Source of the DNA: Apostichopus japonicus
Taxonomy: Eukaryota > Echinodermata > Holothuroidea > Aspidochirotida > Stichopodidae
NCBI RefSeq assembly: GCF_037975245.1
Contig: NC_092568.1
Span: forward strand, 7,299,501 to 7,363,500
DNA length: 64,000 nucleotides
Direction of reading: 5' to 3'
Part shown: in pieces, positions 30,633 to 39,941 of the stretch
Layout: each line of letters begins with the position of its first letter
How positions within the stretch are numbered: the stretch's first letter is position 1
Notes under the pieces: generated by a model
Database searches by the model: none
Seen by the model: only the letters and a program-made list of their open reading frames with translations
Told to the model about the DNA's origin: nothing
Position numbers and translations under genes: made by a program

Positions 30633-33337
30633 ATGTTCTTTACATTTTCCTTGGCAAGCTATTATGCTTCATCTTACATGTTTGGGAATTTCAACAAATT
30701 CCTGGCCTATGGACGAGGTAAGTTACTATCAACAAAAAGAATGTTTTAATGCGCATTTTAAGTTAACATTCACCCACAGTATCTTAACAGTCGATTGCAT
30801 TGAAAATAATGATATTTTTAATTTCCAACGTATAAACACCGGAATAGAAAAGTAGTCAAATTTGTAATTGTGTGACTGTTGATTCATACTTGTTTTACAA
30901 TCAGAAAATTAAATCAATTTGTCTACATTAGGTTTTAATTATATGATATGTATTAGTATTTCAGTTATTCCACATAAACACATTTCCGTACCCGTTCGCT
31001 GTTTTAACTACCCAAGTGTACTTATCGTCTATACCCTCAGCTCAATACATCCTTCCACAAGGATGTTACGGGTACCGTCCTCCGTTTAAAGGTAAGATAT
31101 TAGTTTATTGTTCTCGTAAGTCATCAATGATATTCAAGCATTTACGTGTGTGAAATCACTCGATCATTGATATAAAGAAGGCCAAGGCATCACTTTGTGT
31201 CCATGGGGTGGAGGGGGCGGAGGGTGCTAATGAGAACATGAATAATGATAGTGGATAAATACATAATGTTGTTGAGTGGAAATGTAACCGTCACTTACGA
31301 TTGATTTCTCTAATTATTCATCTATAAACTAGCTGGCGGAGTCACATAGGATATATCAGGACGATTATCGGAATTTTATTTCTAAAATTGTTTAGTTTGA
31401 GCAGAAATATCTCCTTTTAAATCCAAAGAAATCCCAAGAAATTTTGATTTGAAAATATCAATGTTAAGCGAAAAGGTTTAATGAATATTAAAGAACAGAG
31501 AACTATAATTCAGGGCTCGTGTGTAGCATGTACCTCTTACACTATTTAATAAGGAGTCTGCAGCGACGATAAGTTTAACTATTACTAACCATAACAATTT
31601 ATTACATCGTTCCAACATTAGCATATACACTGTCCCATACTTTTCCAGCGAGACAACTTATTGTTTACTGTGTCTATCTTGCCCACTCTAGTAAATGCGG
31701 TTCCAGTTAGGTATCTTGTTGTAAAAGTTAAATATAAGAAAAGAATAAGAAGTTTCCTTAAATTTTGTTCAAAACTTTTCAAACTTAATTAAGATTATCT
31801 TGTGTATATTATGATCTATGAATCTGCTAGGAATGAATTTGTAAGACTTGCTTAATTCTCTGTGCAATTAAAGAAATTGTAATGAAAGAAATCCAAATAT
31901 AACTCCATGTTTTAGAATATCACTCTTTAAGAACACTTTTGTTTATAGAACAGCTCTCTTTGTACAGAACCTTTTTTTACATTCTTTCATTGTAGCTTTC
32001 CGATAACTTTTGTAACGAATTTTATGGTTTATTATTTTCTTAATCTCTTAAACGTTTATAGCCTATATGTCGTAATCTTTTTCTTCAGGTTCTTAATTGT
32101 TATATGATTTTTTTAAATCCTATTTATCAACTATCTGTAAGTTTATACTGGAATAGAGAATAAGTGAATGAATGAAAGTGATGGCGCTGTATCAATATTT
32201 CTAACATTGATATAAATGGACTTTAACATTAAGTTATACATCCTTTTTCTACGCATAGATCTAAAACGGACAACCTTCAATCGGGAATCTCCCGTGACCG
32301 GAGATGATTCCTCTGCGCTTCTTTGCTTAACATCAGGTACTTTTTTCACGCTTGTTCTCCAAGTTACTAACTTTAAAGGAAATACTTTTTTCATAGTACC
32401 AACTTTTGTTATTATAGACGTACAGTTTATATCTCACTCTAAATAAAGACACGAATTTTCCACCATCATGCAAGCAATTAATAATGTCACTTCATTGTAC
32501 AGCTGTATATTCTAATTTCTTGTCCTTTTGCTGTGTTTCTTTGTTTTGATTGACTGATGTAGTTAAGTTAAGTCAATAACCTCGCCTTATTAAGTTCAAA
32601 TGAAATGACAATATAACTTCTCTGTTTTACTTTAGAGCAAACCCTGCGCATGCGTGAAGATCTCCATTACAGTAAGATCAAATGTTCTCTTCTTTTACTG
32701 AAAATGAATATTCTTGACGTATAAAAGGATATATTACTTGATTTTTTGCTTTATACCCGAAATTCTATGTTTCTTAAAATCAAACTTTCAGTAAAATGCT
32801 GTAATTTTTTAAAATTATTAAAAAAATATATATATGCTAACATTTCTTCTGCTCTTTTCAGTCTTCCTTGATCTTACGCTTCAAGACCAGTTAAAATTCT
32901 ACCCTGACTTTGTGCTGGCACAACTTGAAGGTGAGTTACAAACGATACTCGTGTTTAGATAAACTGATATACATATACATAAATATTCATGAGATGTTCC
33001 ATAATTTCCTCTAATTTCACTATTTAATGGACAAAATGTCGACGAATGTTCACATGGTGGTCTTTGATTACTCTTTGAGGCGTTTTTTGTTTGTTTCCAC
33101 AGAATGCCTCCTTCAAGGACTTCCTTCAAGTTTTCCTCTCGATCATAAGAACGGTTAGTCGGTTGTTTTGTTATGTAATTATTGCCAGAATGAAGGCAAG
33201 AAAAGAGAACGAATAACCACGTGCTCGATACTCATGCTAGGGGATTTCCTTAATTGTTATTCATCTTTTATTTCAGATCCTGAGAGAACCTTTTTGATTC
33301 CAAATGGTAACTTTGGGATCCCCACCTTGCCTCGAGG
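30633..33337 (+). CDS. Micro-exon gene, exons 1-7: N-terminal, non-repetitive part
   Basis: About the first 143 residues. Exon 1 gives the hydrophobic start; exon 2 gives [17 protein letters not shown]; exon 3 is Ser/Thr-containing with one Cys; exon 4 is the shortest (36 bp, [12 protein letters not shown]); exon 5 is amphipathic ([20 protein letters not shown]); exon 6 has [14 protein letters not shown]; exon 7 has [20 protein letters not shown]. Donors of exons 1 and 2 are strong (GAG|GTAAGT, AAG|GTAAG). The exons do not resemble one another, so this may be a distinct N-terminal region before the repeat-like exons. An internal GT in exon 7 (after AAATG) offers an in-phase shorter form. Confidence 0.7.
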
Positions 33338-39300: not shown

Positions 39301-39941
39301 GAAGTACTTCATCTCATTAAAAAATATCATTCGTATTTTGCTGAAAACAACAAAAACCTGTCCAGAAAATGATAAATATACAACAATGTTTAACAACACT
39401 TATGTAACAGGTTTATATACATGTTTATATCAGACTTCTTTTATTGAGCGAACATTTAGGTAGTTATCATAGCAAGCTGTATTCGATGACGTAAAGCCCG
39501 GGTCACATCTGCGCGATTCAACACGCGATTCAACTCGCAACTAAAATCACGCGAATCAGAAAAGTTGCTTCTGAGAAGTTGCGCTGATTAGGACATTGCT
39601 CTATTGCAAATCAACCCAAATCGACGGCGCAACTTTTATTGCGCAACAAGTTGATACCCGTGTCTAACTACGCGATTCAACCTTCAATTGTATTGCGAGT
39701 TGAATCGCGTGTTGAATCGCGCAGATGTGACCCGGGCTTAAGGTTCATCTGGCATATATGTAATAGTTGCACTACGTCAAAAACTAACTTTATTCGAGTG
39801 CCTTAACCTAACAACATCCAGACGTGAAAGCGAACACAAAAGTATATCTTACGATCTGCAGGTTTTTTACACTTAAATATTCCTACTTGGCTTTCATTTC
39901 ACATCTCAACAGGCGACCACCTCCTTTACCTGCAGTACTGA
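30633..39941 (+). CDS. Unrecognised gene of 23 phase-1 micro-exons, predicted 409-residue Ser/Thr/Gln-rich protein
   Basis: Exons: 30633-30717, 31041-31091, 32259-32336, 32636-32671, 32862-32930, 33103-33153, 33278-33337, 33773-33841, 34025-34072, 34294-34338, 34464-34502, 34937-34984, 35270-35323, 35606-35656, 35983-36036, 36629-36682, 36876-36929, 37102-37149, 37976-38026, 38438-38482, 38731-38778, 39068-39130, 39913-39941. Every internal exon is 36-78 bp, a multiple of three, flanked by AG and GT, and in phase 1 at both ends; the sum is 410 codons including TGA. I do not recognise the protein. The start ATG is the first in its open frame and opens a hydrophobic, aromatic segment ([18 protein letters not shown]) that may be a signal peptide. 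The other forward frame in exon 1 meets a stop in exon 3. Because all exons are symmetric, any could be skipped without breaking the frame. One or more further exons could be missed in the longer introns. Confidence 0.75.
33773..39941 (+). CDS. Micro-exon gene, exons 8-23: repeat-like DG modules and stop
   Basis: Sixteen exons. Exons 13, 14, 17, 19, 21 and 22 begin (G)AY GGN, giving Asp-Gly at the junction; exons 9, 12, 18 and 20 begin Asp-X. Typical peptides are [35 protein letters not shown] and [18 protein letters not shown]. Each module is 13-23 residues, rich in Thr, Ser and Gln, poor in Cys and hydrophobics, and suited to an extended, possibly O-glycosylated, secreted or surface protein (inference). 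The degenerate shared opening and near-constant size suggest the array grew by exon duplication. The last exon encodes a short GDHLLYLQY tail and TGA. Confidence 0.75.
36246..36478. repeat. Long (TA)n microsatellite in a micro-exon gene intron
   Basis: About 230 bp of nearly pure TA dinucleotides, with a few TTTATA and AACTATA interruptions towards the right end. It lies between micro-exons 15 and 16. Open frames translating to alternating Tyr-Ile are artefacts of this repeat. Confidence 0.98.
37130..37345 (+). repeat. 91-97-bp tandem repeat built from the end of micro-exon 18 and its donor
   Basis: GGATCAGCGT starts at 37130 (inside the exon), 37221 and 37318, each followed by an ACTACTG/ATTCATTG-type sequence and GTAGG. 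Splice-donor-like GT positions are 37150 (true), 37241 and 37338. The intervening unit is G-rich. This parallels the two arrays in the dynein introns although the gene is different. Confidence 0.88.
39494..39739. mobile_element. Foldback MITE with 47-bp perfect terminal inverted repeats
   Basis: Left repeat 39494-39540 begins AAGCCCGGGTCACATCTGCG; right repeat 39693-39739 is its exact reverse complement. Subterminal CGCGATTCAAC is repeated within each arm and again inside at about 39670. There is no ORF. Flanks (GTA on the left, AAGG on the right) do not give a clear target duplication; a decayed TTAA, as for piggyBac-like elements, is possible but unproven. It lies in the last intron of the micro-exon gene. 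Confidence 0.85.

Follow-up and report, generated by a model that had tools for sequence, protein, structure and literature searches.

A sea cucumber gene of symmetric phase-1 micro-exons, with a predicted beta-meander that places one strand in each of its later exons

Runs of small symmetric exons encode repeat-like structural segments in the titin PEVK region and in tropoelastin, where the number of such segments is set by splicing. Exchangeable elements are also present in an echinoderm immune family, the sea urchin 185/333 (SpTransformer) genes, which have two exons, and in which these elements are not separate exons. The length of the titin Ig and PEVK segments is under splicing control through exon skipping (PMC11040099), and the micro-exon genes of schistosomes encode lineage-specific proteins in exons of 6-81 base pairs (bp), which are mostly multiples of three and mostly 15 bp long (PMC10526429). 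Micro-exon genes in a wider sense have been described in rice (PMC6600660), and the Cuvierian organ outer-layer proteins (COOLPs) of the sea cucumber Holothuria leucospilota are orphan, domainless proteins, which are predicted to be almost all beta-sheet and mostly consist of long tandem repeats (PMC12472103). Here, we analyzed a window of 64,000 nucleotides (nt) of the Apostichopus japonicus genome (NC_092568.1, positions 7,299,501-7,363,500, forward strand), which contains on its plus strand, at window positions 30633-39941, a gene of symmetric phase-1 micro-exons. We read this gene as a series of 21 internal phase-1 cassettes. In the last two thirds of the series, each cassette would contribute one strand to a long polar beta-sheet, and a transcript that lacks a given cassette would likely give a protein that is one strand-sized unit shorter and still in frame. 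This reading, which depends on predicted models, is a tentative one, to which we give slightly less than an even chance.

Re-splicing of the gene located all 23 segments that an earlier note on this DNA had proposed, with their AG/GT borders. The 22 introns are all GT-AG and all in phase 1, and their sizes range from 123 to 1167 bp, with a sum of 8079 bp. The 21 internal exons are, without exception, multiples of three that are entered in phase 1, with lengths between 36 and 78 bp and a median of 51 bp. The unbroken frame of 410 codons given in the same note was confirmed as well, with the stop codon included in this number, as the spliced coding length of 1230 nt corresponds to 409 residues and a stop. 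The start codon is located in exon 1 (30633-30717), and an upstream start was rejected because an in-frame stop at 30564 lies 22 codons 5′ of this ATG, with no other ATG in between. The last coding exon, exon 23 (39913-39941), contains the TGA stop codon, and the AATAAA sequence at 40192-40197 is a likely polyadenylation signal.

The arrangement was compared with chance by determining the longest run of phase-1, stop-free exons of 36-78 bp above a splice-score threshold, using splice matrices composed of metazoan consensus values, which were not trained on this genome. The controls were 100 dinucleotide shuffles of the locus, 26 stretches of equal length (13 places on two strands, overlapping and with known genes included), and the minus strand of the locus. 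With scores above 4, the locus gave a chain of 21 exons, as compared to no more than 4 in the shuffles, no more than 10 in the other stretches, and 2 on the minus strand. The corresponding values were 21 versus 8, 14, and 3 at a threshold of 3, and 16 versus 3, 4, and 0 at a threshold of 5. The micro-exon chain is beyond chance.

The exons that precede an intron end in G in 21 of 22 cases, with the exception of exon 4 (32636-32671, 36 bp), which ends in A. In combination with phase 1, a G-ending donor places a GNN codon at the junction, and no stop codon has this form; all forward joins among all exon pairs (253 of 253) give a sense codon at the junction. Asp is encoded by 12 of the 22 junction codons. 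The protein contains six Asp-Gly pairs, all of them on exon borders, at the starts of exon 13 (35270-35323, 54 bp), exon 14 (35606-35656, 51 bp), exon 17 (36876-36929, 54 bp), exon 19 (37976-38026, 51 bp), exon 21 (38731-38778, 48 bp), and exon 22 (39068-39130, 63 bp).

Four relatives, here called P0001 to P0004, were retrieved at E ≤ 10 from 5.77 billion proteins, all of them from A. japonicus. No relatives from outside this species were found among these proteins by sequence, by profile, or with part of the Ser/Thr/Gln-rich region as the query, the searches being word-based, so that very distant kin could escape them; the last query, which had only 29 candidates to score, recovered three of the four A. 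japonicus relatives and none that was new. No Pfam family was above its cut-off in the predicted protein, and the only match, WS_DGAT_cat (PF03007), was rejected with an E value of 0.19 and 11.9 bits against a gathering cut-off of 23.6. The view of the earlier note that no described family matches this protein is in agreement with these results. In the literature nothing was found on micro-exon genes of sea cucumbers or on BSL78_28099, while papers on exon skipping or alternative splicing in A. japonicus included none on this gene, as judged by their titles and the beginnings of their abstracts, and neither "microexon" nor "micro-exon gene" was present in the best 10 of 702 papers that matched three of five microexon and echinoderm terms.

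The protein P0001 (395 residues) is the product of this locus, and all 395 of its letters agree with the spliced window once exon 4 is dropped and the exon 22 donor located 6 bp upstream is used. Hence, this gene's own database model shows variation at two points, a single cassette exon and a single tandem donor. Exon 22 has two donors in tandem, one after 39124 (score 4.0), on which P0001 relies, and one after 39130 (score 10.2). The donor of exon 4 (score 4.9) is the second-weakest among the 21 internal exons. The weakness of the exon 4 donor together with the choice of the weaker exon 22 donor suggests that the P0001 gene model was built on transcripts rather than by a gene finder.

The proteins P0002 and P0003 (410 residues each) share 75% and 74% identity with the window protein, and both retain all 23 exon units, with per-exon identities of 55-93%; the three close family members are 74-89% identical. 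Because both of these full-length paralogues keep the exon 4 unit, this exon is very likely real and was left out in frame by the database model. P0002 has one extra residue at the border of exons 5 and 6 (32930-33103), as a 3-bp acceptor shift would produce, and P0003 has one within exon 7 (33277-33336, 60 bp). The record of P0003 is named isoform X2, which makes it probable that the annotation of this gene family includes more than one isoform. P0001, P0002, and P0003 are all assigned to a contig of 43,016,746 bases, which makes it probable that their genes are on one chromosome, and tblastn with P0001-P0004 (matches above 22 bits) indicated no further gene copies within the 64-kb window, where the best match off the locus had 25.4 bits. 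The fourth relative, P0004, is assigned to a different, shorter contig (222,152 bases). It lacks, in frame, exactly the units of exon 2 (31041-31091, 51 bp), exon 4, exon 5 (32862-32930, 69 bp), and exon 9 (34025-34072, 48 bp), which amounts to 17 of 17, 12 of 12, 23 of 23, and 16 of 16 residues, respectively. The similarity of P0004 ends after exon 11 (34464-34502, 39 bp), and is followed by a peroxiredoxin-like domain. A stretch of 16 residues encoded by exon 1 is invariant in all four database relatives.

The AlphaFold2 models of P0001 and P0002 both contain, at low confidence, a beta-meander to which each exon involved supplies one strand, the exon borders being located in the turns. The meander starts with the strand in exon 8 (33773-33841, 69 bp) and extends to exon 20 (38438-38482, 45 bp) in the P0001 model and to exon 22 in the P0002 model. 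One strand is predicted in each of the exons in between, which besides those already named are exon 10 (34294-34338, 45 bp), exon 12 (34937-34984, 48 bp), exon 15 (35983-36036, 54 bp), exon 16 (36629-36682, 54 bp), and exon 18 (37102-37149, 48 bp), as well as in exon 20. The short low-confidence strand in exon 21 and the 3-residue strand in exon 22 are present in the P0002 model only. Neither model has such a sheet in exons 1-7, which include exon 3 (32259-32336, 78 bp) and exon 6 (33103-33153, 51 bp), and exon 4 is predicted with low confidence as a helix. In the P0002 model, 2 of 14 exon borders touch a strand, each at its last residue only. When the exon lengths were reshuffled 20000 times, 246 arrangements had as few cuts, and so did 6 of 233 rotations; 4 of these rotations, counting the observed one, were shifts of 0-3 residues. 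For the P0001 model, the strands were touched by 2 of 12 borders, and 8 of 198 rotations had as few cuts, again counting the observed one. The strands have two polar faces, and the 159 residues of 13 strands contain 24.5% T, 13.8% Q, and 12.6% S.

The Ser/Thr/Gln-rich character of the protein, which the earlier note had pointed out, was borne out for the last 266 residues (18.4% T, 11.3% S, and 10.2% Q). The same note had proposed that the exons starting with Asp-Gly are a duplicated module. The likeness of the exon units was compared with 400 shuffles, with the first two residues either excluded or included. Beyond these two residues the six Asp-Gly exons scored 169 versus 156.8 ± 12.2 in shuffles (z 1.0), exons 9-22 scored 998 versus 1050 ± 39 (z -1.3), and the ten Asp-led exons 494 versus 525 ± 27. 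When the first two residues were included, z increased to 4.3, 1.9, and 1.4, respectively, which indicates that the likeness of the exons is mainly the Asp-Gly pair itself, and a duplicated sequence module beyond this pair is not supported. At the DNA level, the comparison of 253 pairs of exons with 60-bp flanks gave 76 matches at E ≤ 10 versus 37-63 in 20 shuffles, but this excess could come from shared splice signals alone, because shuffling destroys those signals. The best match, between exons 14 and 19 and nearly in register, had an E value of 5.6e-4; one of the shuffles reached 2.9e-5, and the best values of the remaining 19 were between 0.002 and 0.2. A 91-bp tandem repeat of 2.3 copies (37129-37342) duplicates the 3′ part of exon 18, including its donor. 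The read-through of exon 18 into this repeat was rejected, as a stop was met in all five extended forms examined, and because of these stops the repeat is possibly a failed exon duplication.

If the predicted strands are real, the loss of a phase-1 cassette would keep the frame and make the protein one strand-sized unit shorter, and turns at the exon borders would join successive one-exon strands. The alternative use of cassettes may tune the N-terminal part of the protein, through exon 4, and the size of the sheet. Such a protein would be structural or self-assembling, as in a matrix, an adhesive, or a coat, rather than an enzyme or a membrane pore. A wider proposal states that splicing sets the length and the edge of an open-ended, self-assembling polar Thr/Gln/Ser sheet in a family specific to the sea cucumber lineage, in which one micro-exon would be one beta-strand, with borders in Asp-Gly turns, and in which phase 1 and the G-ending donor would ensure sense joins; taken as a whole we regard it as unlikely. 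Several observations weigh against the strand-per-cassette reading itself. Mean predicted local distance difference test (pLDDT) scores are low in both models (38.3 and 45.7), and only residues 161-220 and 311-330 of P0002 reach ten-residue means of 70-82. Both models were built from three sequences that are close relatives, and the two are not independent. Exons 21 and 22 are without a strand in the P0001 model, and the P0002 model has an additional 3-residue strand in exon 23, which was excluded from the count. Apart from Asp-Gly, no protein-level repeat above shuffles was found among the exon units. Exon 4, the sole skip seen in this gene, falls outside the sheet, and P0004 is a fused and perhaps faulty model, which loses its similarity after exon 11 and runs into the peroxiredoxin-like domain, so that its absent exons are possible annotation gaps. 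Ser/Thr/Gln-rich sequence can also be disordered.

The alternatives to this reading are not mutually exclusive. The last point could mean that the Ser/Thr/Gln-rich part is disordered and that one strand per exon is an artefact of the predictor, which we consider somewhat improbable. This would be consistent with the low pLDDT, with a content of large hydrophobic residues in the strands of only 17% and no alternation between the faces, and with the lack of a Foldseek match in the PDB at an E value of 0.001 or better. It would not be expected, however, from strands that are in register with the exon borders, from a 43% content of V, I, Y, F, W, and T in these strands, or from the presence of Asp-Gly, which is a favored turn pair, at borders only. 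Structural similarity to porins and to apolipoprotein B might point to a membrane beta-barrel or a lipid-binding sheet, but these matches had a high root-mean-square deviation on a low-confidence model and had only the meander topology in common with it. A barrel was rejected since the strands have no hydrophobic face (mean difference between faces 1.16 versus 1.17 in shuffles), and such a fold is therefore highly improbable. The single match at an E value of 0.001 or better in the Foldseek viral library, which was nameless (E 5.5e-5, TM 0.21), was taken as a shared meander only.

A different question is how much the exons vary. The gene could be an ordinary lineage-specific one with small, constitutively spliced exons, the uniform phase of which is a trace of gene growth, while the exon 4 skip and the donor shift would be noise in the annotation or infrequent splicing events; this explanation is a serious one, even if we would not expect it to prevail. 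The presence of all 23 units in both full-length paralogues speaks for it, as do the small number of differences in the window's own model and the fact that tandem donors 6 bp apart are a frequent form of splicing noise. On the other hand, the database model omits an exon that both paralogues keep and picks the weaker donor, and the isoform X2 record indicates that at least two family isoforms are probably annotated. At the other extreme, the product could be a secreted, combinatorially variable protein akin to those of schistosome micro-exon genes, which we think quite improbable. The two share the gene logic of mostly short, symmetric exons with lengths divisible by three, and proteins limited to one lineage (PMC10526429). 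However, the exons described here are longer than those of schistosomes and all in phase 1, and the searches revealed no sequence relation. An N-terminal signal peptide, which is another trait of those genes, is not clear, as the most hydrophobic nine-residue segment at the N-terminus has a Kyte-Doolittle mean of only 1.51, which is weakly hydrophobic. Several isoforms made by exon skipping are a further trait of the schistosome genes, and the variation seen here is small, with one skip and one donor shift in P0001 and one relative named isoform X2. The sheet architecture predicted here is not mentioned for micro-exon genes in the text consulted.

The gene resembles titin PEVK and tropoelastin in having runs of small symmetric exons, but its product is rich in T, S, and Q instead of P, E, V, and K or G, V, A, and P, it is predicted to form strands rather than springs, and it matches no Pfam family above the cut-off. 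With 185/333 it shares the organization of an echinoderm gene family with exchangeable elements, but in 185/333 these are not separate exons, and no 185/333 protein was among the matches. The COOLPs likewise come from a sea cucumber, lack orthologues and domains, and are predicted to form beta-sheet. They are almost exclusively intramolecular beta-sheet, and their tandem repeats are long. In the present case the low-confidence sheet is predicted for exons 8-20 or 8-22 and not for exons 1-7, and the exon units other than their Asp-Gly are no more alike than shuffles. By the tests made, this gene is not a member of the schistosome micro-exon genes, of titin PEVK or elastin, or of the COOLPs.

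Two of the introns contain further repetitive sequences, which are a 255-bp (TA)n microsatellite in intron 15 (36246-36500) and a palindromic element in intron 22 (39494-39739) that resembles a miniature inverted-repeat transposable element, has perfect terminal inverted repeats of 47 bp, and is present in a single copy in the window. Upstream of the gene, the plus strand contains sequence of an axonemal dynein heavy chain (2933-25397), which is separated from the micro-exon gene by a 51-bp tandem repeat in 15 copies with 98% matches (26710-27475). Downstream, a Gypsy-type long terminal repeat retrotransposon is located on the minus strand (45878-54998), and because its 1286-bp end repeats are identical it is likely a recent insertion. 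Each of these end repeats contains a 24.5-copy TTACGCAG array. An open frame that follows the Gypsy pol (47316-48029, minus strand) has C2H2 zinc-finger matches below the curated cut-offs, and is possibly an extra gene. Further downstream, a gene of an EHD (EH-domain protein) GTPase is present on the plus strand (55985-57130).

The relation between exon borders and secondary structure is usually argued from ancient genes. If the strand-per-cassette reading is true, the exon borders would be tied to single secondary-structure elements in a seemingly young gene family, and the 21 cassettes together with the three close family members would make the link between strand and exon testable. A. japonicus is a farmed species, for which public RNA data exist. 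In that case a free-living deuterostome would also provide an example of a gene that consists nearly entirely of symmetric micro-exons.
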